A DNA stretch of 52,159 bases, taken from IMG/VR virus record IMGVR_UViG_3300000228_000010, positions 2,335-54,493 of that record; one strand, given 5' to 3'. This document shows, in pieces, positions 3,200 through 45,744 of this stretch. The position numbers and the translations under genes were made by a program. How positions within the stretch are numbered: the first letter of the stretch is position 1; every line of letters begins with the position of its first letter. Origin of the DNA: a virus. The notes beneath the pieces are model-generated. The model was not told where the DNA came from. It saw nothing but the letters and a program-made list of their open reading frames with translations, and made no database searches.

Positions 3200-4912
3200 A
3201 TGAACGAATTAGAGCTTCCTGATAACGACCTTGCCGCAAAAGCACTGCTAAAACTTGATGATGATGAATTAAGGGCACTACGGTTTACAATGCCGTGGCA
3301 GACAAATGAAGTATCAGATCAGCCCGCCGATCCTGACGGTTTTAGTGGTCTATCAACAGAGCTTGCAACACAACGGGAAAAGTTGCAGCAGGCTTGTTGG
3401 GATAAGTTTAACAGAAACCCGCAAGTAAGCACTGCAGTTAAAGGTCATGCAGGCAGATTAGCAGGTTATGGTTTTGAAGTTACAAGCGAAATTGTAAAAA
3501 TTCAAGATGTCCTTGAAGAGATTGAACTCGACCCACGCAACAGATTATATACATACTGGCCTAAGTTTGTGGCAAGATCAAACATAGAAGGTGAACTTTA
3601 TTTGTGTCTCACCTTACATGATGATGGCTTTATTGAAGTAGATTTTGTAGACCCCAGCGACATAACAGGCGGTGGGGAAGATGGAATTGTCTATCATCCT
3701 ACTAAAGCAACAATGCCCTTATTCTATTATGTGAATCAGAACGCATCTATTGAGGGTAACATAACATCTGCAACTATCATCCCATCCATCTACATTGCAA
3801 GATATCCTGAGCTTGCAAAGCTTGTACCTGAAACTATCTATAATGGTGGGCAGATAAAGGATAGTAGAAGCAGCAAAGCTAAATATAAAAAGATCGGTGG
3901 TTATAGGAGATTCCTCATATCTTGGGATAAATCTTACATAACCAAACGTAACGTATCTCACCTACGCACTATATTGGAGTGGTTGAATCACTATGAGAAC
4001 CTGAAGAAGTACGAAATTGACCACAAGAAATCTGCAGGATCTTACTTGTGGGTTGTGACAATGGAAGACCCTAAAACTTTCAGAACGTGGTTGACATTGT
4101 CAGATGAAGAACGTAAAAAGACAGGCATCATGGCTAAAAAGACACCCGGCGGTACGATGGTGTTACCCCCAGGTATGAAACTACAGGTAATGAATCCATC
4201 ATTGCCATCTATCTCTGAATCTGATACCGACATATTTCACATGATTACTTCAGGATTGAATGAACCTGAAGATGTAACATCTGGACAATCAAAAGGTACT
4301 TATTCTTCTGTAAAGGCTTCAAGAGGTCCCATGTCAGACAGAATATCAGACGAGGTTTGCTTCTTTGAAAAGTTTTTACGATATGATTTCTGGAGTTCTA
4401 TATTCTTCTTGAAAACTATGATTACTGGGTTCCCTGCAGTATTCGATCAACGTGTAGCCATAGATTTTAAAAACCAAGATCCTGTATTTAAAAATGTCAA
4501 AAAACGCCCTGAAGCACTCATTGAAATAAGCTTTCCAACATCAGAGGTTATTGATTCTGAGTCCAGAGCAAGAGCATTCCTGGGTGTTAAGCATGGCTCT
4601 ACTTACGATGTTTTAGGTATACCCAATCAAGAGATTGCTAAGAAATTGGGCTTTGGTAATTACAGAAGGATGCGTCTGGTACATGCAACTGAGATGGAAA
4701 AGTACCCTGAACTTGCATTATCTGTGGATCAATCTGCAATACCAGGGCAAGATGTTAATCAAGAGGATGGCGATAATAAGGATGCAAAAGATACCAAAGA
4801 TAATAAGGATGCTAAGAAACCAATCAAAAAAGAAGCAGATCAAAAGAACCCAGATGCTGCTCCAGTGAAGAAACCGACACTCAAGCGAAGAGTTGACACC
4901 AAACAAAAATGA
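3200..4912 (+). CDS. Portal protein
   Basis: A 570-residue protein that fits the dodecameric portal at the unique capsid vertex, through which DNA is packaged and the tail attaches. Support comes from its place after terL and before the protease, its length, and a portal-like centre: FVARSNIEGELYLCLT followed by VDFVDPSDI, then later DVTSGQSKGTYSSVKASR, a pattern typical of portal clip and stem regions. The last 50 residues are a charged low-complexity tail of K, D, N and P, probably disordered inside the capsid. The ATG follows GAGGG. I do not assign a specific portal subfamily. Confidence 0.82.
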   Translation: MNELELPDNDLAAKALLKLDDDELRALRFTMPWQTNEVSDQPADPDGFSGLSTELATQREKLQQACWDKFNRNPQVSTAVKGHAGRLAGYGFEVTSEIVKIQDVLEEIELDPRNRLYTYWPKFVARSNIEGELYLCLTLHDDGFIEVDFVDPSDITGGGEDGIVYHPTKATMPLFYYVNQNASIEGNITSATIIPSIYIARYPELAKLVPETIYNGGQIKDSRSSKAKYKKIGGYRRFLISWDKSYITKRNVSHLRTILEWLNHYENLKKYEIDHKKSAGSYLWVVTMEDPKTFRTWLTLSDEERKKTGIMAKKTPGGTMVLPPGMKLQVMNPSLPSISESDTDIFHMITSGLNEPEDVTSGQSKGTYSSVKASRGPMSDRISDEVCFFEKFLRYDFWSSIFFLKTMITGFPAVFDQRVAIDFKNQDPVFKNVKKRPEALIEISFPTSEVIDSESRARAFLGVKHGSTYDVLGIPNQEIAKKLGFGNYRRMRLVHATEMEKYPELALSVDQSAIPGQDVNQEDGDNKDAKDTKDNKDAKKPIKKEADQKNPDAAPVKKPTLKRRVDTKQK

Positions 4913-4968
4913 TTGCATTGTCAAGGGCCAATTGATAATCTTTGTTGCAATTCAGTCCAATAAAACAC

Positions 4969-4995
4969 TTGACAGCTAGTGTTATTGTTGATAAA
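4969..4995 (+). promoter_or_regulatory. Possible promoter for head genes
   Basis: A consensus TTGACA at 4969-4974 is followed after 15 bases by GATAAA at 4990-4995 (or, after 17, by TAAATG). It lies in the 104-base gap between the portal and the protease/scaffold gene, just before a strong ribosome site, as expected for extra transcription of capsid genes. The -10 match is imperfect. Confidence 0.4.
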
Positions 4996-5016
4996 TGGTA
5001 GGCACTCGGAGGATTT

Positions 5017-6159
5017 ATGAAAAAAGAAACTGTAAAGCTGACTAAAGGAGCAATGCAACTAGTAGATGACCAGTGTTTTGCTTCAGTTAAGTTTGCTGAG
5101 GGTGTTGAGGGTGAGAAAAAGCCTCAACTTGAAATGCTCGCCTATTCAGGTGGCATTATTAAGGATCACTGGTACTGGGGCGACCTTGCCATTGACCTTG
5201 AAGGCATGGAATTCCCCAAGAAGAAGTTTCCGCTATTGGAAGATCACGACACAAGTAAAAAACTTGGTTTCATCAAAAAACTGAGTATCGAAAATAACCA
5301 ACTCACTGTTACAGATGCAGAGTTTTTAGACACACCTGAGAGTATCAAGTTTCGGGAAACATCGGCACAAGGGTTTCCATATGAAGCATCTATCTATGCA
5401 AAACCTACAAAGATTCAAAGCTTAACCAAAGATGAAACTGCCGAAGTAAATGGATACACCATGAAAGGTCCAGGTACTATTTGGCGCAAAGCAATTTTTA
5501 AGGAATCATCCGTGTGTACATTCGGATATGATTCTAACACCAAATCGGTCGCCATGAGTGAGACCGAAGATGTAACTATTGAATATGGGGAACGATCAGG
5601 GGAAGAAACGCAGTTAAATAACAAGGAGGATTTACCAAAAATGGATCTGGAAAAATTCAAAAGTGAGTGCCCAGAGGAGTTCTCCAAGTTGCAAGCTCAA
5701 ATCACGGACGCCGTAACGGCACAGTTTTCCGTTGAAAAGAAGCAACTTGAGGACAAACTGACAGCGGCTGCTGAAGCAAATGCCCAACTGTCTGCTGAAA
5801 ACAAGGACAGTGAGAAGCGCCTTATTGCATTGGAGAAGTCGGAATCCCAACGCATTGAGCAAGGCATCAAGCTCTCCGCTGACAATCTGTTTGCAGAGAA
5901 ATTCAAAGAAGCAGGGCTGCCAGACCGCATTCAGGACAAGGTTCGCCGTCTTGTAGGGCATGAGCAATTCGTTGCTGATGGCGCATTTGATACCGAAGCT
6001 TTTGCTGCCGCTGTTGATGTAGAACTGAAAGATTGGTCCGGCGCTACTGAAGGCGCAGTAATCGGTTTTAGCACCTCAACTAAGACTCCTGCTGATAACA
6101 ATAGCGCCACGAAGCTGGCGGATGATGTAGCGGCTCGCATGGCAAGTTACCTGAAGTAA
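5017..6159 (+). CDS. Prohead protease with C-terminal scaffold domain
   Basis: A 380-residue fusion of maturation protease and scaffold. The N-terminal domain resembles HK97-type (S78) prohead proteases: a candidate catalytic His77 in FPLLEDHDTSKKLGF and Ser125 in PYEASIYAKP, separated by the usual spacing. It would cleave scaffold and capsid proteins during maturation. From about residue 209 the protein becomes a charged, Gln/Glu/Lys-rich coiled coil (about 225-300), typical of scaffolds. A strong internal start at 5641 probably makes the scaffold alone. ATG at 5017 follows CGGAGG. Confidence 0.82.
   Translation: MKKETVKLTKGAMQLVDDQCFASVKFAEGVEGEKKPQLEMLAYSGGIIKDHWYWGDLAIDLEGMEFPKKKFPLLEDHDTSKKLGFIKKLSIENNQLTVTDAEFLDTPESIKFRETSAQGFPYEASIYAKPTKIQSLTKDETAEVNGYTMKGPGTIWRKAIFKESSVCTFGYDSNTKSVAMSETEDVTIEYGERSGEETQLNNKEDLPKMDLEKFKSECPEEFSKLQAQITDAVTAQFSVEKKQLEDKLTAAAEANAQLSAENKDSEKRLIALEKSESQRIEQGIKLSADNLFAEKFKEAGLPDRIQDKVRRLVGHEQFVADGAFDTEAFAAAVDVELKDWSGATEGAVIGFSTSTKTPADNNSATKLADDVAARMASYLK
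5641..6159 (+). CDS. Nested capsid scaffold protein (internal start)
   Basis: In frame within the protease gene, AGGAGG at 5624-5629 lies 11 bases before ATG 5641, which would give a separate 172-residue protein starting MDLEKFKSE. The product is the coiled-coil scaffold portion only: helix-forming, Gln/Glu/Lys-rich to about its residue 95, ending in a compact C-terminus. The design matches the known lambda C/Nu3 arrangement, where a scaffold is made from an internal start of the protease gene in greater amounts. The ribosome site is seen directly; separate expression is inferred. Confidence 0.72.
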   Translation: MDLEKFKSECPEEFSKLQAQITDAVTAQFSVEKKQLEDKLTAAAEANAQLSAENKDSEKRLIALEKSESQRIEQGIKLSADNLFAEKFKEAGLPDRIQDKVRRLVGHEQFVADGAFDTEAFAAAVDVELKDWSGATEGAVIGFSTSTKTPADNNSATKLADDVAARMASYLK

Positions 6160-8453: not shown

Positions 8454-8903
8454 ATGCTGAATACTGTTGATGACACCATTGACTTTGTAAAGATTCAGCT
8501 ATCATCGGCAGCTTCCACTCTCACTACTGAGGGGCTGGAAGCTGCCGTTAATAAAGCTCTGGCCGAGTTAGGCTGGAGCTTACCTATTGATAATGCTGAA
8601 AAAGAAATGTGGCTCGTTATTCGTGCTGCTCGCCATGCTTGCTACATTTTGTGGATTGCATCAGCACAAAAGTTCAAATACAAGCAGGTAAATTTGCAAC
8701 ACAGATTTGAACACTACGAAAAGCTGATTAAACACATGGATTCCGAGTTCGATGCTGCTTTGTCCGCTAATTCTACATTGTTTTCTAATATAGAGTCGTA
8801 CAAACTATTTGGAACAGCGGTAGGGGCAGGGTTTGCGTATGACGATCTAGGACAGGACATCACTTATGATAACCTGATCTTGTTCATAAATTCTGGAGAG
8901 TAA
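8454..8903 (+). CDS. Putative head-tail connector protein
   Basis: A 149-residue mostly helical protein in the slot where HK97 gp6-like adaptors, which form the ring below the portal, are found. Helices are suggested at about residues 6-18, 28-38, 47-75 and 80-100, with a Trp-containing middle (EKEMWLVIRAARHACYILWIA). It begins after AAGGTGA and ends one base before the next gene, consistent with translation as a block. Family not recognised with certainty. Confidence 0.55.
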   Translation: MLNTVDDTIDFVKIQLSSAASTLTTEGLEAAVNKALAELGWSLPIDNAEKEMWLVIRAARHACYILWIASAQKFKYKQVNLQHRFEHYEKLIKHMDSEFDAALSANSTLFSNIESYKLFGTAVGAGFAYDDLGQDITYDNLILFINSGE

Positions 8904-8904
8904 A

Positions 8905-9525
8905 ATGGCCGGTATTGGACCAGACATTTCTGAAGTTATAAATGAACTAGGTGTGGTAATAGAAATATTACGCACACCTACTAATATATCTGAAAAAATT
9001 ATCTATGACATGAACTCCCAAGCTACCAAGCCGTTTATTAGGGAGTTTCATAGAGATGGTTCTTTCTCTTCTGTTACAAAAATAGAAACAGGTGATATCC
9101 TTCATGTTTTAAAAACTGAAGAATACTTAATGGTTATGAATAAAACACCGGATATGTTCGAGGATGAAATTGTCGAATATGCGTCGGTTTTATATAAAAC
9201 AAATCTTCCATCAACTGCTAAAATATCCAGACCTAGTGCTGTAGTGAGAGATGTTGATTACAACCTTACTGAAACATGGGCAGATGTTGTGACCAGGGCA
9301 TATGGTGTAATAGCAGATAAGTTGCAAGGAACAAACATTGACCAAGAAGAACCCACAGGTCAAATTCAAATATGGGCTATTGAAGCATTTGTGCCTTCAA
9401 GTTACGGAGCAAAACCTCTGGATAGATTATACATCACTGCAACTGAATATTACAAGGTAGAAAAGGTTGAGAAATACAGGTATCCAGGTATACACGCACT
9501 GGATCTTGTTGAAGATACGAGGTAG
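8905..9525 (+). CDS. Putative neck or head-closure protein
   Basis: A 206-residue protein in the connector block. The sequence is mixed alpha/beta, with a beta-rich middle (GDILHVLKTEEYLMVMNKTPD) reminiscent of stopper proteins that seal the portal channel until the tail attaches. I do not recognise the family, so the role is inferred from order: capsid, adaptor, stopper, tail completion, terminator. It starts one base after the previous stop, and the next gene starts two bases after its own stop. Confidence 0.45.
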   Translation: MAGIGPDISEVINELGVVIEILRTPTNISEKIIYDMNSQATKPFIREFHRDGSFSSVTKIETGDILHVLKTEEYLMVMNKTPDMFEDEIVEYASVLYKTNLPSTAKISRPSAVVRDVDYNLTETWADVVTRAYGVIADKLQGTNIDQEEPTGQIQIWAIEAFVPSSYGAKPLDRLYITATEYYKVEKVEKYRYPGIHALDLVEDTR

Positions 9526-10213: not shown

Positions 10214-10658
10214 CACGGCAAAAGAACGGAATATCAAGTCATCTATAAAGAAATTCTTTGTGGATTATTTTGGTTCTATCGTTTCTTTTGATAAAACGGT
10301 AGCCCATCCCGACATCAGGGATAGCACTTTAACTAAATGGGTTCTTGTAAACTTCAAAGGGTTTCAACGATCCACGCTTGCAGAATATGTTGTAGAGGTA
10401 TATTGTGCAACAAGAAAAGACCCGGAAGGTGATAGCCTAACAAAACTGACCGATGAACTTTGTGGTCTTTTTTATAATGATATAGCATCAGATGGTCTAA
10501 CAAGAATACCACTGTACGATATTTACACAACTCCTTGGACACTGCTTAGTGGTATGGTAGTGCAAGAGATTATTGATACACCGATATTTAGAATGCCGTC
10601 AGATGAAACAAAAGTAAAAATTCTGACACTGAGGATTCGGTGGGGAATGCAGATATGA
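10200..10658 (+). CDS. Putative tail terminator protein
   Basis: A 152-residue protein from the ATG at 10200. It lies immediately before the major tail region, where tail terminators (lambda gpU class, which cap the tail tube and join it to the head) sit. The sequence is alpha/beta with strands around TLTKWVLVNFKGFQRSTLAEYVVEVYCAT and a C-terminal strand VKILTLRIRWGMQI, similar in layout to gpU-like folds. Its start overlaps the previous gene by 14 bases and its stop overlaps the next ATG (ATGA). Family assignment is by context. Confidence 0.55.
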   Translation: MPLSSTAKERNIKSSIKKFFVDYFGSIVSFDKTVAHPDIRDSTLTKWVLVNFKGFQRSTLAEYVVEVYCATRKDPEGDSLTKLTDELCGLFYNDIASDGLTRIPLYDIYTTPWTLLSGMVVQEIIDTPIFRMPSDETKVKILTLRIRWGMQI

Positions 10659-10942
10659 ATGACAATCATCAAACCTTTGTTGTTTGCGAAATGTGCAAGA
10701 AAAGGTTAATTGAAAGAAAACAAAATGGTTTGTGGTATTTTTGCTTTGGTAAAGGGGAAGCTGGCAGTAATAAGATTCCTGTTGAAATGTATATACACGG
10801 CAGTATAAAGTTGAAATGCTTACGCAGAAATTGTGGTCATTGGAATGTGTTGAATTACTTTCCACAAGTGTTTGAAGAAGTTCAATCGGATAGTCCGAAA
10901 CCCCAGGTCGTTCAAAACAACAACAAACTTAGGAGGATTTAA
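10655..10942 (+). CDS. Com-like zinc-ribbon protein
   Basis: A 95-residue protein with two cysteine pairs: C-E-M-C (residues 11-14) and CLRRNC (54-59), with another Cys near 30, and the segment SIKLKCLRRNCGHWN resembling the second knuckle of phage Mu Com, a zinc-finger translational activator. The gene overlaps the upstream stop as ATGA and sits directly before the major tail protein gene. It could be a regulator or a structural zinc protein. It resembles in layout the small zinc proteins at 30991 and 46335. Confidence 0.65.
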   Translation: MNDNHQTFVVCEMCKKRLIERKQNGLWYFCFGKGEAGSNKIPVEMYIHGSIKLKCLRRNCGHWNVLNYFPQVFEEVQSDSPKPQVVQNNNKLRRI

Positions 10943-11934: not shown

Positions 11935-12375
11935 ATGGCATCAACACTCAATCCTGACATCAGGAATATAGAATATGGCAAACGTGAAATCAAATCCCTT
12001 CAAATCTTTCCTCTATCCATTCGTGATCAATTTAAACTGTCTGATATGATTACCAAGGTTGTTACTAGCATTGTAGACGCTCAAGAACAAAATCAGTTTA
12101 GCGACATGGCATTTATGCATCAAGTGATGGAAGCTATTGAAGCCAACATTGCACAGGTATTGTGTGTATCGGCTGATATTTCTATTGAAGAATCAAATGA
12201 GGTTCTTGATATCATGACTAACCCCCAACTCGTTGAGTTGGTTGAAATTATATGGGTTGTGAATTATGAGCCCGCAATAAAAAAAGGGAAAGACCTCTTC
12301 GAGAGGGGGAGGAATCTGTTTCCTTCGAAGAGGTCATCAGCACCTTCCTTGAATGCTTTCCCCAATATAGATTAG
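11935..12375 (+). CDS. Tail assembly chaperone, gpG-type
   Basis: A 146-residue helical protein between the major tail and tape measure genes, the position of lambda gpG. It would coat the tape measure protein before tube assembly. After about residue 116 most ribosomes continue in this frame; a fraction should shift -1 at A7 (12279-12285) to make the longer fused chaperone. Zero-frame codons there are ATA AAA AAA GGG. AAGGAG precedes the ATG, just downstream of the terminator. Confidence 0.85.
   Translation: MASTLNPDIRNIEYGKREIKSLQIFPLSIRDQFKLSDMITKVVTSIVDAQEQNQFSDMAFMHQVMEAIEANIAQVLCVSADISIEESNEVLDIMTNPQLVELVEIIWVVNYEPAIKKGKDLFERGRNLFPSKRSSAPSLNAFPNID
12279..12335 (+). promoter_or_regulatory. 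Programmed -1 frameshift signal
   Basis: The heptamer A AAA AAA (12279-12285) is in the correct phase for a -1 slip. After a 6-base spacer (GGGAAA), GACCTCTTCGA (12292-12302) pairs perfectly with TCGAAGAGGTC (12325-12335), 11 bp. Inside the loop AGGAA can pair with TTCCT, and the loop run GGGGGA could pair with TCCCC at 12359-12363 as a pseudoknot. Spacer and stem match the usual requirements of such signals. Confidence 0.88.
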
Positions 12376-12704
12376 AACATGTGTATTGCAAGTCCTTTAA
12401 GGAAGGAGGACTTGCACAAGGTCAAGTAGAGTATTTGTATGAGGCATCTCAAAAAAGAAAGTCCTGTGAATACAGGTTTTTAGCTGCAATACATGGTGTT
12501 GATTTACCAGCAGAGGATGAAGAAAAATCTACGGTGGCAGTTGAAACTGCAATTGAAAAAGAGTTTGAACAAGCCAAACCCTCAAATGGTTTATTTGGAG
12601 ATCCTGCTGAATATGAAAAAATGAGTGAAAATGAACGATCAATCGCATCCCAGGCTTTAATGGCGAAATTCAAAAACTGGGCAAAAGATACTTCTTTAGG
12701 ATAA
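12285..12704 (+). CDS. gpT-type extension of fused tail chaperone (-1 frame)
   Basis: The -1 frame is open from the slippery site to 12704. The fusion read from 11935 would be about 256 residues. Its extension begins REGEESVSFEEVISTFL and contains FPQYRLEHVY, then a charged helical tail with KSTVAVETAIEKEFEQAK. The ORF has no good start of its own: the GTG at 12381 lacks a ribosome site, which supports expression by frameshift. As in lambda, gpG and gpGT-type proteins would act in a defined ratio on the tape measure. Confidence 0.85.
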   Translation, partial: RERPLREGEESVSFEEVISTFLECFPQYRLEHVYCKSFKEGGLAQGQVEYLYEASQKRKSCEYRFLAAIHGVDLPAEDEEKSTVAVETAIEKEFEQAKPSNGLFGDPAEYEKMSENERSIASQALMAKFKNWAKDTSLG

Positions 12705-41095: not shown

Positions 41096-41504
41096 TTTCA
41101 AATTCCTCCTTCCATTGAGTTTCAATTTTTCGTTGCTCTTGTCTGGATATTACTGATACTTTTTTCCAGCTTTTATTTTTATAGTTGGCTCTGGGATAGC
41201 TAGTGCTATGTCCTCCGTATTCCTTTCTCATTCTAATTTCTTTTGCACTTCGGTAATTCTCAACATACCTGGATGGTGTGTAGTGACCATCTGCCTGCAC
41301 TTCTCTTGCTGCACGTTCCACAGAATTTGACTTAGGTAATTCTATTGCTAAATTTTTTAACACTTCGGTATCTGTTATACCGTAATGGACTTTATAGAAA
41401 AAGTGAAACAATGCAAAATTACAATCTCTGGCTTCTGGATAATTTTCCAAGATTTGGTACGCTAAATGGTACAGCGTTTCTTTATCTGAATCTACACCCT
41501 TCAT
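40992..41504 (-). CDS. Hypothetical protein overlapping ligase gene
   Basis: A 170-residue protein coupled (ATGA) to the gene before it. It starts with a helical region (LYHLAYQILENYPEARDCNFALFHFF) and then charged helices with ERAAREVQADGHYTPSRYVENYR; this resembles small conserved phage helical proteins but I cannot name the family. The last 104 bases overlap the ligase start in a different frame, a long overlap that may mean a shorter real protein or shifted reading. Basic C-terminus. Confidence 0.55.
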   Translation of the reverse strand: MKGVDSDKETLYHLAYQILENYPEARDCNFALFHFFYKVHYGITDTEVLKNLAIELPKSNSVERAAREVQADGHYTPSRYVENYRSAKEIRMRKEYGGHSTSYPRANYKNKSWKKVSVISRQEQRKIETQWKEEFENGQATYESTRGADNRFSIEGDRLSPLRLTKVRRH

Positions 41505-42115
41505 CGTTCTTTCACCACCGAATAACCATCTACATTTGATACATCGAACACTTTGTCAGCGGCAGAAATCATTTCAGGTATATGGGATACAAGGATTAAT
41601 TGAATGCCTAATTCATCAGATAGTGTACTCAGCATAGTGGAGGCTTTGTCTTGTAAGTCTCTGGAAAGAAACTTAGCTGGTTCATCAAGAACCTGTATGG
41701 CTCTCGTTTTCTTGATAGACCAAACTGCCATTCTTAGTGCAAGAGATGCAATATCTAAAGCTCCACCACCTGAAGAATCAATGGGTTCACACTCGTTGCC
41801 ATTACGAACAAACAGCATATCACATTCGGTTTGATTGCGCCTGGTTACAAATTCAACTTTAAACTCATACGGATCATCAAATACCGCTGATAGTGCCATA
41901 GTGACGATGTTTGTTATCCGTGTTTCCAAACTCTTTTGGAGTGAGTTAGCCACTGTTTGTACCACTGCTCTGGCTTTTTCAATATTCAGCAATTGTTGCT
42001 CTAAATCAGTTATGGTGGCTTTACTCATGGTAGCAAACTTTTCTAAGGACATTTGCTCTGCTTTCATTTTCTGAAAGGCTTCATGCACCTTAACTATGTC
42101 ATATAATGTTACCAT
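41501..42115 (-). CDS. SbcC/Rad50-like ATPase, C-terminal half
   Basis: A 204-residue protein that is the second half of an SbcC/Rad50/T4 gp46 ATPase. It opens with a coiled-coil stretch (about 10-75), then has the ABC signature SSGGGALDIASLALRMA (114-130), Walker B QVLDEP (141-146), D-loop and a switch His178 in ILVSHIPEM. Walker A is missing because that half is encoded at 44647-45744. The two must pair to form a working ATP site. It acts with SbcD in recombination and end processing. ATGA coupling to the next gene. Confidence 0.85.
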   Translation of the reverse strand: MVTLYDIVKVHEAFQKMKAEQMSLEKFATMSKATITDLEQQLLNIEKARAVVQTVANSLQKSLETRITNIVTMALSAVFDDPYEFKVEFVTRRNQTECDMLFVRNGNECEPIDSSGGGALDIASLALRMAVWSIKKTRAIQVLDEPAKFLSRDLQDKASTMLSTLSDELGIQLILVSHIPEMISAADKVFDVSNVDGYSVVKER

Positions 42116-42345
42116 GTGAAATTATCCTTTAAATCTTCAAAGTCGGTATTGATCTTACCATCCAACTTTTTAATATCAGCTTCCATATCAGCAAGTAGTT
42201 CTTTTGCTTCCGCCAAACCATCTACTTGAAATTCCTTTTTAAGACGCTCCAGGATTTCTTCTCTGCGCCCTTCCAATTGATTTACTGATGCCTTAGCTGA
42301 TTCAATCTGTTTACCGAGTTTTGTTAATTCATCTGCAATAGTCAT
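42109..42345 (-). CDS. Short coiled-coil protein between sbcD and sbcC C-half
   Basis: A 78-residue all-helical protein (TIADELTKLGKQIESAKASV, RLKKEFQVDGLAEAKELLAD). The favoured start is ATG 42345, eight bases after AAGG in the end of sbcD; a GTG at 42354 is possible. Heptad repeats suggest it forms or contacts the coiled-coil arms of the split SbcC complex. It overlaps the C-half by 7 bases. Function inferred from position and helix pattern only. Confidence 0.6.
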   Translation of the reverse strand: MTIADELTKLGKQIESAKASVNQLEGRREEILERLKKEFQVDGLAEAKELLADMEADIKKLDGKINTDFEDLKDNFTW

Positions 42346-42346
42346 G

Positions 42347-43258
42347 TTATTCACCTTCCAAACAAGAATTTATAATATCCACTACTCCAACCTCATAATC
42401 ATTTTCTTCCAGATGATTGTGAAGTGCTTCAACAAAATTGAGCTTTATGGCATGTCCTTCAGCAGTTTTAGGTGCTTTTAATGTGGCAATGAAGTCCTGC
42501 ATCTGCTCTTTCTTTTCTTTCTCTTTCTTGGCTTTATCCATCTGCATAATAGTGTTGAATGCCTTGATTTCTAAATCAATTATATCCACAGTGTTTTCGT
42601 TTGTTGAATACATTGCTACTGCAGGATGGTGTTTCTCTTGACTAATATTTGAGCGTAACATACTCCCCATATTAACCAAATGTTTCTTACCTTTTGATAC
42701 CATAAATTGCTGGTGATTATCTCCCGAGCAAATAGCATTGAAATGATTCTTTGTCAGAATGTGGTTTGCCCAAGTATGCCCTTCTTGTTGTGCCCATAAT
42801 TTCTCTTCAATAATCATAAGGTGAGTAACCAAGATATTAGTTTTACTTTCATCCTTTATTTCAGGAATTGGCTCTTTCCATGAAGCACCGTAGAAGTCAA
42901 CATCATCTATTGATACAGGATCGTTACCTAACAGTGTGACAACCTCTGCTGCAATGAGAGTACCTAATGCAGTACCAGTCAAATCTGCATTATGAAACTG
43001 CTGATCGTGCTGACCAGCAACACAAAGAACTCGGACATCAAACTCAAGAATGGTTTTAATTACAGCCTGTACAACCTCATGATTCTCTTTGTAAGTATCA
43101 AACACATCACCAGGCAGTACCATCACCTGACATTTTTCTTCATCCGCTATGCATAATTCTTGCCTAAATTTATACATAACAGTAGAGAAATAATCATCGG
43201 TTCTATTCTTGGGCTTTTTATTCGTAATATGTTGGTCACCACAAAATAAAATTTTCAT
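42347..43258 (-). CDS. SbcD/Mre11-like exonuclease subunit
   Basis: A 303-residue metallophosphoesterase, the nuclease partner of SbcC (T4 gp47 equivalent). Motifs in order: GDQH (residues 7-10), LPGDVFD (48-54), GQHD (82-85), VTHLM with His146, and SGDNHQ (178-183). The typical GNHD and GHxH are here GQHD and GDNH, so two metal-ligand positions are changed. The last 60 residues are helical and Lys-rich, as in the capping region. ATGA coupling at its start, with AAGGA upstream. Confidence 0.88.
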   Translation of the reverse strand: MKILFCGDQHITNKKPKNRTDDYFSTVMYKFRQELCIADEEKCQVMVLPGDVFDTYKENHEVVQAVIKTILEFDVRVLCVAGQHDQQFHNADLTGTALGTLIAAEVVTLLGNDPVSIDDVDFYGASWKEPIPEIKDESKTNILVTHLMIIEEKLWAQQEGHTWANHILTKNHFNAICSGDNHQQFMVSKGKKHLVNMGSMLRSNISQEKHHPAVAMYSTNENTVDIIDLEIKAFNTIMQMDKAKKEKEKKEQMQDFIATLKAPKTAEGHAIKLNFVEALHNHLEENDYEVGVVDIINSCLEGE

Positions 43259-43479
43259 AACGGTCCTTGTTGAATCTGTTCAATCAACTGATCTGTTTTA
43301 ACTATAGCACAACTTTCATCACCGTGCGAAACGGATGCATATTTTTCTTTGCAATCAGTGCAGATATTTTTAATCCCCAAATCCACAACACCAAACATAA
43401 AGCTATGTTCTTTTGTTGAAAGGTTAATACCACATGCTGATAGAGGATAAGTCGCTGAAGTTAAAATATGGATTGCCAT
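43255..43479 (-). CDS. Small Cys-containing hypothetical protein
   Basis: A 74-residue protein from ATG 43479, which forms TAATG with the stop of the gene before; GGGAGG lies upstream. It has the pattern IKNICTDCKEKYASV (a CxxC) with cysteines near residues 16 and 57, which may bind a metal. The N-terminus is strand-rich (MAIHILTSATYPLSACGI). The preceding thyX and following sbcD make this part of one operon. Role unknown. Confidence 0.6.
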   Translation of the reverse strand: MAIHILTSATYPLSACGINLSTKEHSFMFGVVDLGIKNICTDCKEKYASVSHGDESCAIVKTDQLIEQIQQGPL

Positions 43480-44135
43480 TATATCCTCCCACAACTGCGA
43501 GGACCTTCGGGACAAGTACCTTTAGTTTCGCACGGTGCTCCAGCGTTTTCAAATATTACTGGGGCAACATCTTTGCATATATTTTTTATGCGATTAAAAA
43601 GGTCACGTATCTCCCATTGTGCATGGATGCAACACCGCAAAGAAAATGCGTGGTGCAATTCTCTGGCATTCATAGTCATAACAATGTGAGTACAACATGC
43701 ATTTGGCAATAAATACCTTGCATCTTCAGCAGGTATTCCGGCATTCACCATCATTTCATATAACCCTGCAATGTTTTTCATTGCAGCATTAAATTCAGGT
43801 TTAAATCGTTCTGATATAGTTGGTGGTGTTACATACGGAAACTGTTCAGTTACAGTGCAGTACCTTTGTGATTGTTGGCTGTACGATGCATGGCGGAATC
43901 GAACTAACTGGTGGGAACACGCTCTTGATATTCCCTCGATTGAGAACGTGAATGAAACATGTTCTAATACTGATGTATGACCCATACTAATTACTTTTCG
44001 TATCAGAACCTCTTCCATAGTGGAATCCATAGCCATGTAAAAGTTTGATGCCACATCTGTGGAATAACATTGTCTGGCTGCAGCATATACTATAGCCTGT
44101 GGATACGGAGTGTGTTCCAGTAGTTTTACCTGCAT
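43479..44135 (-). CDS. thyX: FAD-dependent thymidylate synthase ThyX
   Basis: A 218-residue flavoenzyme that methylates dUMP to dTMP with methylene-tetrahydrofolate and NADPH, raising the thymidine pool during phage replication. The signature is RFRHASYSQQSQR (residues 79-91), matching RHRxxSxxxxSxR except that the second residue is Phe80 rather than His. EHVSFTF and LPNACCTHIVMTMNARELHHAF also fit. Additional cysteines cluster at the C-terminus (CETKGTCPEGPRSC). The gene overlaps the kinase upstream by 10 bases. Confidence 0.92.
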   Translation of the reverse strand: MQVKLLEHTPYPQAIVYAAARQCYSTDVASNFYMAMDSTMEEVLIRKVISMGHTSVLEHVSFTFSIEGISRACSHQLVRFRHASYSQQSQRYCTVTEQFPYVTPPTISERFKPEFNAAMKNIAGLYEMMVNAGIPAEDARYLLPNACCTHIVMTMNARELHHAFSLRCCIHAQWEIRDLFNRIKNICKDVAPVIFENAGAPCETKGTCPEGPRSCGRI

Positions 44136-44650
44136 GTTAGTGTCTCCATGAATTTTGATGCAAGAATGCTGAGGTCATCCAAAGTACCATTGTTGTCAAT
44201 GTGAATATCATAATGATAATGAAGGACATTGCTATCACCAGTATTAGTATGGTGTTTTTCTGATTCAACACGATGAATACACACTGTTACTGTGGTAGGG
44301 AATGCATCCACAAATTTTTTAATTTCTTTTGGTTCTCGAATGTGAAAGAACAATACATGATCTGGATGATCCTTTTGTGCCTCAGCAATGGTAGAACTCA
44401 TGTATTTCATCGGCAGGTCGTAGGCTGCGGTGCTGAGATCTTTTAAGTCTGACAAGAACTTTCTGCCCTTATCATTCTTGATGTAATCCCAACCCAATAT
44501 CACTGCTGCTTCTTTTATTGGATCAACAGAAGATACTGAACGGGAATAAATACTTAAGTCCCACAGATAGCTTGTACAGCATTCAACAAATGAATCTTTG
44601 CCTGCTAGAGGATAACCATTCACAATGATATACTTTTGGAGATTTTTCAT
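44126..44650 (-). CDS. Deoxynucleoside monophosphate kinase-like protein
   Basis: A 174-residue P-loop kinase with GYPLAGKDS (residues 12-20). The GKD form of the loop is typical of T4 gene 1-type dNMP kinases, which phosphorylate dGMP, dTMP and modified dCMP. A central stretch HVLFFHIREPKEI would carry the Arg-rich lid or substrate region. Its position between the split sbcC half and thyX suggests nucleotide supply for replication. AGGAG upstream, ATGA coupling to sbcC N-half. Substrate is not identifiable. Confidence 0.75.
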   Translation of the reverse strand: MKNLQKYIIVNGYPLAGKDSFVECCTSYLWDLSIYSRSVSSVDPIKEAAVILGWDYIKNDKGRKFLSDLKDLSTAAYDLPMKYMSSTIAEAQKDHPDHVLFFHIREPKEIKKFVDAFPTTVTVCIHRVESEKHHTNTGDSNVLHYHYDIHIDNNGTLDDLSILASKFMETLTCR

Positions 44651-45744
44651 TCTTGTAACTCCTTCAAAATTTTAGCCACCACTGATTTATCTATCTTGCT
44701 CTTGCATGTAGGGCAGACACCTGCATTGCTTATCTTATCAAGGTAATCAACAACCTTAGCAGAAATAGTTTCTTCAAATTTCTCAATTGAGGTTTCTGCC
44801 TGCTCCAATGCAGAGATGATTAATTCCAGTGCCTTTTTAGATTTATTCAATTCCTGCAGTTTAGCAAACATGGGTTTCAGCAGCAAATACGGTGCCTCAA
44901 CTTTGAGCCAATCCGTGTCAGCTTCCAACTGTTCATTAGCTTTTAACAATGAACCACAGTAAGCAACCAACACTTTGTGCTTCTCAAACAAACCTTCCCG
45001 CGTACTTATTTTTTTCAATAAGTCTTTCTGGAATTTCTCAGCTTTTATCAAAACACTTTTGTTTCGTATCTGTTCATCATAATCAGCGATTTTAGATGCT
45101 AATTCCGATGCGGTCCGCTGCTCTCCGATCAGTTTATCACGCTTGTTGCAGTCTTTCATCAAACTATCAATCTTCAACTCAACGGAGGGCAAATGCTCAA
45201 ATTTAGTCAGATCATTTATGGCTTGGTTGAGGCGTTCTGTTTCTGCTTTAATCTGCTGTTTTGCTGCGGAAGATTTTGATCCGAGCTTTTTAAATACACG
45301 ATCAATGATATCCAAACCAACAAGCTCGTTCAGTTTCTTTGCACGTTCTCCTGGTGTATCTTGTAACATGAAGTATGGCTGGAATTGAGTTTGCAGGTTA
45401 TAATCATTGATATTGGCTATATCTTGAATGGGTTGTGGCACATCATGGCGCAATGCCTCATAGAAACCATCATCAGTTTCATATTTATTCTTGCCGTTAG
45501 TTCTGGATTTAGTAAACCAATCATTATCAAATTCCATACTAACTTCAACGGAATCATCAGCTTTTGCTTTCCAAGATTTGAAAGATTCTCCTGAGGGTCT
45601 GTTTTTCAAAGCCCACAACATGGCACGAATAATAGCAGATTTACCTGAATCAGATGTACCTGTTACTACATTCATACCATGATGAAAGGAAAGCAAAGTA
45701 GAACGATGGCTTTGGTAATTCCTTATCTCAAGTGATTTGAGCAT
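44647..45744 (-). CDS. SbcC/Rad50-like ATPase, N-terminal half with zinc hook
   Basis: A 365-residue protein carrying only the first half of an SbcC/Rad50 ATPase. Walker A is GTSDSGKS (residues 29-36), then the Q-loop region and a long coiled coil (about 155-335). It ends just after a zinc-hook motif C344-P-T-C347, the natural apex where Rad50 coiled coils meet. The second half of the ATP site is in a separate gene 2.5 kb downstream (41501-42115). The zinc hook would dimerise complexes. Start follows AGGAG and overlaps the ruvC-type stop (TAATG). Confidence 0.88.
   Translation of the reverse strand: MLKSLEIRNYQSHRSTLLSFHHGMNVVTGTSDSGKSAIIRAMLWALKNRPSGESFKSWKAKADDSVEVSMEFDNDWFTKSRTNGKNKYETDDGFYEALRHDVPQPIQDIANINDYNLQTQFQPYFMLQDTPGERAKKLNELVGLDIIDRVFKKLGSKSSAAKQQIKAETERLNQAINDLTKFEHLPSVELKIDSLMKDCNKRDKLIGEQRTASELASKIADYDEQIRNKSVLIKAEKFQKDLLKKISTREGLFEKHKVLVAYCGSLLKANEQLEADTDWLKVEAPYLLLKPMFAKLQELNKSKKALELIISALEQAETSIEKFEETISAKVVDYLDKISNAGVCPTCKSKIDKSVVAKILKELQE

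Follow-up and report, generated by a model that had tools for sequence, protein, structure and literature searches.

In the SbcCD/Mre11-Rad50 complexes the ATPase subunit is normally a single chain, as in E. coli SbcC (1048 amino acids) and T4 gp46 (560 amino acids), and the Rad50-binding helices of Mre11 are located on the base of the Rad50 coil. It is still debated whether signals passing between the zinc hook and the heads of Rad50 need a continuous arm to travel along. Here we describe a viral locus in which the Rad50/SbcC ATPase is split into two separated genes, found in a 52,159-nucleotide stretch (referred to as the window; positions 2,335 to 54,493 of the 54,493-base IMG/VR record IMGVR_UViG_3300000228_000010) that was analysed together with the remaining 2.3 kb of the contig. 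One gene encodes an N-terminal half (N-half) and the other a C-terminal half (C-half), and between them lie the genes of an SbcD/Mre11-like nuclease and of a small two-helix protein, here called cc. We put the probability that this locus encodes a phage Mre11-Rad50 (SbcCD) complex with a Rad50 made from two genes at roughly 0.87.

The original prediction, made from the letters of the window, held that the N-half carries a Walker A motif and one coiled-coil arm and ends just past a CPTC zinc hook, and the open reading frame (ORF), the profile matches, a 109-row alignment and a structural model all agree with this description. The N-half matches PF13476 (AAA_23, 5e-11), the SbcC family phrog_77 (3.5e-19) and, weakly, Rad50_zn_hook at residues 334-365; its family profile finds archaeal Rad50 (3aux, 5e-18) in the PDB, together with the N chains 3qkr_A and 1ii8_A. 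The AlphaFold model built on the 109-row alignment has a mean pLDDT (predicted local distance difference test) of 90.4 and presents a Rad50 N-lobe, followed by a long helical arm (145-181 and 185-341) and the hook, and the top Foldseek matches of this model are P. furiosus Rad50 chains. A hairpin in which the N arm folds on itself was considered and rejected; AlphaFold2 gives one long helix broken at 182-184 and no self register dominates. The return coil, ABC signature, Walker B and switch His (in a VSH) attributed to the C-half are present in its translation. This protein matches the C-terminal part of SMC_N (1e-6) and of phrog_77 (6e-5), and the best PDB matches of its family profile are the Rad50 C-domain chains 3qkr_B (6e-15) and 1ii8_B (5e-14). 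Judged by profiles, motifs and predicted fold, the two proteins are the halves of a Rad50, having between them the N-lobe, the C-lobe, the CxxC hook and the antiparallel lower coil of Rad50/SbcC, and departing from that family in not being one continuous polypeptide.

Across the whole contig, window and remaining 2.3 kb together, no second or continuous Rad50 was found. A phrog_77 search of the contig came back empty even for the two known halves and was not taken as evidence.

The split is real and conserved, and is not an artefact. Seven scans of viral contigs in IMG/VR yielded several hundred loci, which were annotated with four profile hidden Markov models (HMMs), and 192 distinct complete cassettes were left after duplicates had been removed by N-half sequence. 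The order N-SbcD-cc-C holds in all 192 (105/105 in the first round): 191 have N<SbcD<cc<C on a single strand, and the window has the equal order on its minus strand. No ORF in these cassettes matches N together with C, or cc together with any other part. The CxxC lies in the last 45 residues of 190/192 N-halves, with a median of 6 residues behind it. One of the two exceptions (L198) has an altered hook, and in the other (L208:2423-4015) the N-half is fused in frame, directly behind the hook, to a NUMOD4-HNH_3 homing-endonuclease domain. The alignment of 109 N-halves has just seven invariant columns, namely G29, G34 and K35 of Walker A, P103, Q120, and the hook residues C344 and C347, so that the hook cysteines equal the Walker A lysine in invariance. 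In the N-lobe tree 25 split proteins stand on one side of a branch and six one-chain SbcCs on the other (support 92/78), and the C-lobe tree gives the same partition (97/90) with a long-branch warning; the trees are compatible with one origin of the split Rad50, within a small sampling of one-chain proteins.

A gene encoding an AP2 protein with a weak HNH_3 match was also seen directly after the N-half gene of Bacillus phage vB_BboS-125. Such mobile endonucleases at the break are a possible clue to the way in which the gene was originally split. Three further loci (L302, L303 and L305) have N, SbcD and cc with the C-half absent within 5-8 kb downstream; the contig of L156/L253 has N and SbcD with no C-half within that distance, the C-half being farther away (L183).

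A break at the hook was said to be what would let two chains reassemble, and the position of the hooks near the N-half ends is joined in this respect by the coevolution of the two halves. When the 192 cassettes (effective number 185) were subjected to direct-coupling analysis, antiparallel couplings emerged between the N and C arms, among them N196-C11, N189-C18, N155-C49 and N142-C53/59, and the top six N-C pairs all fall at N+C 195-207. The register N+C = 204 scores 0.115; the best parallel register reaches 0.060, and the highest-scoring of 20 shuffled pairings 0.019. This register sets C residues 1-61 on N residues 142-206. Lobe-lobe couplings between N and C were also detected. Moreover, residues 278-291 of SbcD couple antiparallel to C 44-59 (sum 335-337), the register 338 scoring 0.095 versus 0.040. 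Since both the N-C register and the SbcD couplings fit the expected positions, sequence data by themselves reproduce the Mre11-Rad50 geometry, even between separate chains. Mirror-tree correlations are 0.78-0.82 among N, C and SbcD and 0.64-0.65 with cc, shuffles giving at most 0.14. An artificial single chain was obtained by reading L015 through its stops, thus joining N, cc and C, and was then folded; its lobes reach a pLDDT of about 90, residues 25-29 ahead of Walker A being assigned as a strand only when the C lobe is present, and the model bears on the single lobes. The two halves very probably reassemble into one Rad50, because coevolution sets the lower return coil antiparallel on the N arm and the C-terminal helix of SbcD on the coil base.

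In the complex that we propose, the N chain would supply Walker A and the ascending helix ending at the zinc hook, and the C chain the lower return helix, signature, Walker B and switch. The chains would rejoin through the ABC head and the antiparallel coiled coil, SbcD would dock on the coil base, two such heads would close on ATP, and the hooks of two N chains would join through zinc. The ATPase action, dimer closure, zinc binding and stoichiometry of this two-chain Rad50 are thus predicted properties. With the UvsX-like recombinase, exonuclease, RuvC-like resolvase and ligase encoded nearby, the complex may serve DNA-end processing in recombination-dependent replication.

The protein cc is the obvious candidate for a missing part of the return arm. 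Five one-chain phage SbcCs have ascending and return arms of almost the same length (165/175, 162/193, 219/213, 106/119 and 164/173 residues, rough yardsticks taken from HMM coordinates), whereas in the split family the ascending N arm has a median of about 194 residues and the coil of the C-half about 62-66 (83 before F79). Because this coil is far too short for the N arm, the N residues above about 206 are left without a partner, and the return arm is about 125 amino acids short if cc is left out. cc has a median length of 81 residues counted from the first start codon (78 amino acids in the window, 78-90 across cassettes) and is predicted, in a low-confidence model, as two helices with a conserved Gly. 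It is present in 192/192 complete cassettes, always ahead of the C-half, whose start it overlaps or approaches to within 30 nucleotides in 119/191. Its couplings are strongest with the N chain (top-five mean 5.5 for the N arm, against 4.3 in shuffles), followed by the C coil (3.9 versus 3.5 shuffled) and the SbcD tail (3.7 versus 3.5). Most likely cc would pair with the N arm above residue 206 and replace the return arm missing from the C chain. A three-chain Rad50, composed of an N chain with the hook, a C chain with the lower return arm and cc as an exchangeable upper return arm, has in our view an even chance of being correct.

Several observations weigh against these proposals. No cc register stands out with N, C or SbcD, and the C-lobe and SbcD catalytic-domain controls show part of the enrichment of cc couplings found at N 207-290. 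Together, cc and the C coil (about 140-150 amino acids) are some 40 residues short of the commonest N arm, and the lengths of the N arm and of cc do not covary. In the read-through model of L015 cc is poorly predicted, and Foldseek aligned this model to PDB entries by about one lobe at a time. The coevolution itself may be inflated by shared ancestry, for which reason registers were used instead of totals, and the 54,493-bp contig lacks end-to-end closure. Somewhat less probable than the three-chain arrangement, though still to be reckoned with, is a two-part split in which cc is a separate accessory factor (a chaperone, a regulator or a DNA adaptor) and the upper N arm is bare or paired with a second N arm. 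The lack of a clear register and of length covariation speaks for it, as does the strongly coupled pair 9-76 within cc, which suggests a hairpin or an antiparallel homodimer; the constant place of cc before the C-half, the short return arm and the preference of its couplings for the N chain speak against it. The third part proposed in the original prediction is strengthened by the presence of cc in every complete cassette and by the shortness of the return arm without it, its place in the complex being a prediction. A search for homology between cc and a stretch of unsplit SbcC returned only matches at the level of coiled coils.

It is very improbable that the halves are joined after synthesis into a mature single chain, by split-intein protein trans-splicing, RNA trans-splicing or frameshifting. 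N and C are always encoded together and in order, and the endonuclease domain of L208 would suit such a history. Nevertheless, the SbcD and cc genes intervene, and in the first 105 cassettes the N-halves stop 2-34 residues past the CxxC and the C-halves start with the coil or close to it, which leaves intein halves no space. Judged from these lengths and without an intein profile, no split-intein halves are present at the break, and RNA trans-splicing was not searched for. Slightly less credible still is that the two halves work in different complexes, the N-half for instance as a RecF-like ATPase; its N-lobe profiles do resemble SMC and RecF heads too, but the antiparallel register, the lobe-lobe couplings, the complementary, non-overlapping motif sets and the conserved linkage all argue against it. 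That the split stems from an error of sequencing or assembly, from a rearrangement artefact or from the decay of an SbcC gene is refuted to the point of negligible probability, and nothing was found in its favour: the arrangement recurs in 192 independent cassettes, as a rearrangement artefact cannot, and the same split in vB_BboS-125, with all ATPase motifs retained (by simple patterns, for example, Walker A in 190/192 cassettes and Walker B in 183/192).

The SbcD partner matches PF00149 (calcineurin-like phosphoesterase, 3e-9). In the window and 110 relatives its metal-site residues D8, GD50-51, HD84-85, H146 and H182 occur in 111/111 and H10 in 109/111, and it would presumably act as a nuclease. 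Its C-terminal helix is predicted, on computational grounds, to bind the Rad50 coil base. Two motif variants were observed in this family: GQHD stands for the textbook GNHD in nearly all rows shown, and GD-N-H for GH-x-H, with the Asp in 95/111.

The minus-strand order of the locus, 5' to 3', is RuvC-like resolvase, Rad50 N-half, deoxynucleoside monophosphate (dNMP)-kinase-like gene, ThyX, small Cys protein, SbcD, cc and Rad50 C-half (Table 1), so that the genes announced between the halves are all in place. The kinase-like assignment is weak in Pfam (E 0.044) and is backed by phrog_139 (3e-6), and for the small Cys protein no family match above cut-off was obtained in Pfam and PHROG profile searches. 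The gene joints are tight, with ATGA overlaps at N-half/kinase, Cys protein/SbcD and C-half/next gene, and ATGGTAA at the cc stop and C-half start. The neighbours comprise a UvsX-like recombinase, a single-strand-binding-like protein, an exonuclease (phrog_107), an ATP-dependent ligase and the RuvC-like resolvase; the first four make up a T4-like recombination set. A distant DNA search of the region against phages gave no match.

Table 1. Positions in the window of the split Rad50 genes, their motifs and the genes between them
Feature	Coordinates	Strand	Remarks
Rad50 N-half	44647..45744	-	365 aa (amino acids); N-lobe with Walker A, Q-loop, one ascending helical arm (~145-341), C-terminal zinc hook
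Walker A GTSDSGKS, N-half residues 29-36	45637..45660	-	G29, G34, K35 invariant among 109 relatives
Zinc hook CPTC, N-half residues 344-347	44704..44715	-	18 residues ahead of stop; both Cys invariant in 109 relatives
dNMP-kinase-like gene	44126..44650	-	cargo, outside conserved cassette; ATGA overlap with N-half stop
thyX	43479..44135	-	cargo; PF02511 7.6e-69
Small Cys-containing protein, 74 aa	43255..43479	-	cargo; ATG start 43479
SbcD/Mre11-like nuclease, 303 aa	42347..43258	-	C-terminal helix (~278-299) is the predicted Rad50-binding part
cc, small two-helix (coiled-coil) protein, 78 aa	42109..42345	-	ATG at 42345; present in every complete cassette
Rad50 C-half, 204 aa	41501..42115	-	lower return coil (~5-66), signature, Walker B, switch His
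ABC signature GGGALD, C-half residues 116-121	41753..41770	-	G116, G118 invariant; D121 nearly
Walker B acidic pair D144-E145, C-half	41681..41686	-	invariant

The split, its conservation, the co-occurrence of the genes, the register and the SbcD docking signal, all of them computed, are best explained as a variant of Mre11-Rad50 with a two-chain Rad50 and a probable third helical part. Nature could then build the normally one-piece Rad50 machine from parts, with the chain cut at the hook and kept cut, its motifs intact, throughout a group of phages that is both large and diverse. The parts lend themselves to separate expression, mixing and swapping, and would thereby offer a natural two- or three-part Rad50 for tests of the arm and hook. 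If the three-chain arrangement is true, the zinc-hook arm has no covalent return path, a continuous arm is unnecessary for Rad50 function, and cc could regulate the length, stiffness or opening of the arm. Moreover, two PHROG families labelled 'exonuclease' and 'ATPase' would be renamed as halves of one enzyme, with a partner so far unnamed.

In tblastn searches that covered 50,697 phage records, relatives turned up only in Bacillus phage vB_BboS-125, Microbacterium phage Magritte (the only two cultured phages) and one uncultured 485-kb phage record, besides one distant one-chain SbcC. Scanning 84,980 species genomes with one C-half motif gave a single 7.8-kb contig of a metagenome-assembled genome, itself a full cassette. 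In vB_BboS-125 the same split is found in gp32 and gp35 (matching phrog_16465 and phrog_15167), with a 78-residue gp34 before the C-half. This phage differs in that gp32 and gp35 are annotated as unrelated genes ('exonuclease' and 'ATPase'), that SbcD follows the C-half and that the N arm is longer, and gp34 has no more than its size, position and helix-turn-helix layout in common with cc (HMM E 0.12). The genome paper of this phage uses none of the terms SbcC, chromosome segregation and ATPase. The 326-residue SbcD gene of the phage (L001:8424-9404) lies in a stretch with no annotated coding sequence in the public record. Magritte also has separate C-half and N-half genes (gp2 and gp155), but they are about 90 kb apart in the record (L163:8001-9053, L002:284-934), the N-half has no CxxC and no cc was found beside the C-half. 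The 485-kb record (L164, LR745208.1) has the N-half (4341-5717), SbcD (8535-9518) and C-half (11986-12621) in the same order; cc was not matched there by HMM, and a 158-codon frame (10376-10849) lies in between.

The heads of P. furiosus Rad50 in 1ii8 A/B and 3qkr A/B, among the best PDB matches, likewise form one head from N and C domains on two polypeptides; we take these to be laboratory constructs without the hook or long arms. Viral rearrangement of the same enzyme pair in the opposite direction is known from Mre11/Rad50 fusion proteins such as Mimivirus R555, in which a single chain carries both SbcD and SbcC (Yoshida et al. 2011, PMC3175470). SbcD-SbcC fusions, e.g. that of vB_EcoM_IME392, also make up most of the one-chain phage relatives in this analysis. 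For 0305phi8-36 one ATPase segment of the fusion was not observed by Yoshida et al. (PMC3175470). A survey of jumbo phages reported SbcC and SbcD in nearly all of them, and a minimal DNA polymerase III as two standalone proteins (PMC7824862). Searches of the open-licence literature, where absence is not proof, brought up no account of a Rad50 or SbcC that is split in nature. With the SbcCD/Mre11-Rad50 systems of E. coli SbcC, archaeal Rad50 and T4 gp46/gp47, the locus shares the head motifs, the zinc hook, the coiled-coil arm, the SbcD partner gene and an SbcD C-terminal helix that coevolves with the coil base. It differs from them in a Rad50 of two chains broken just past the hook, in the truncated return coil of the C chain and in a dedicated helical protein of 78-90 amino acids.

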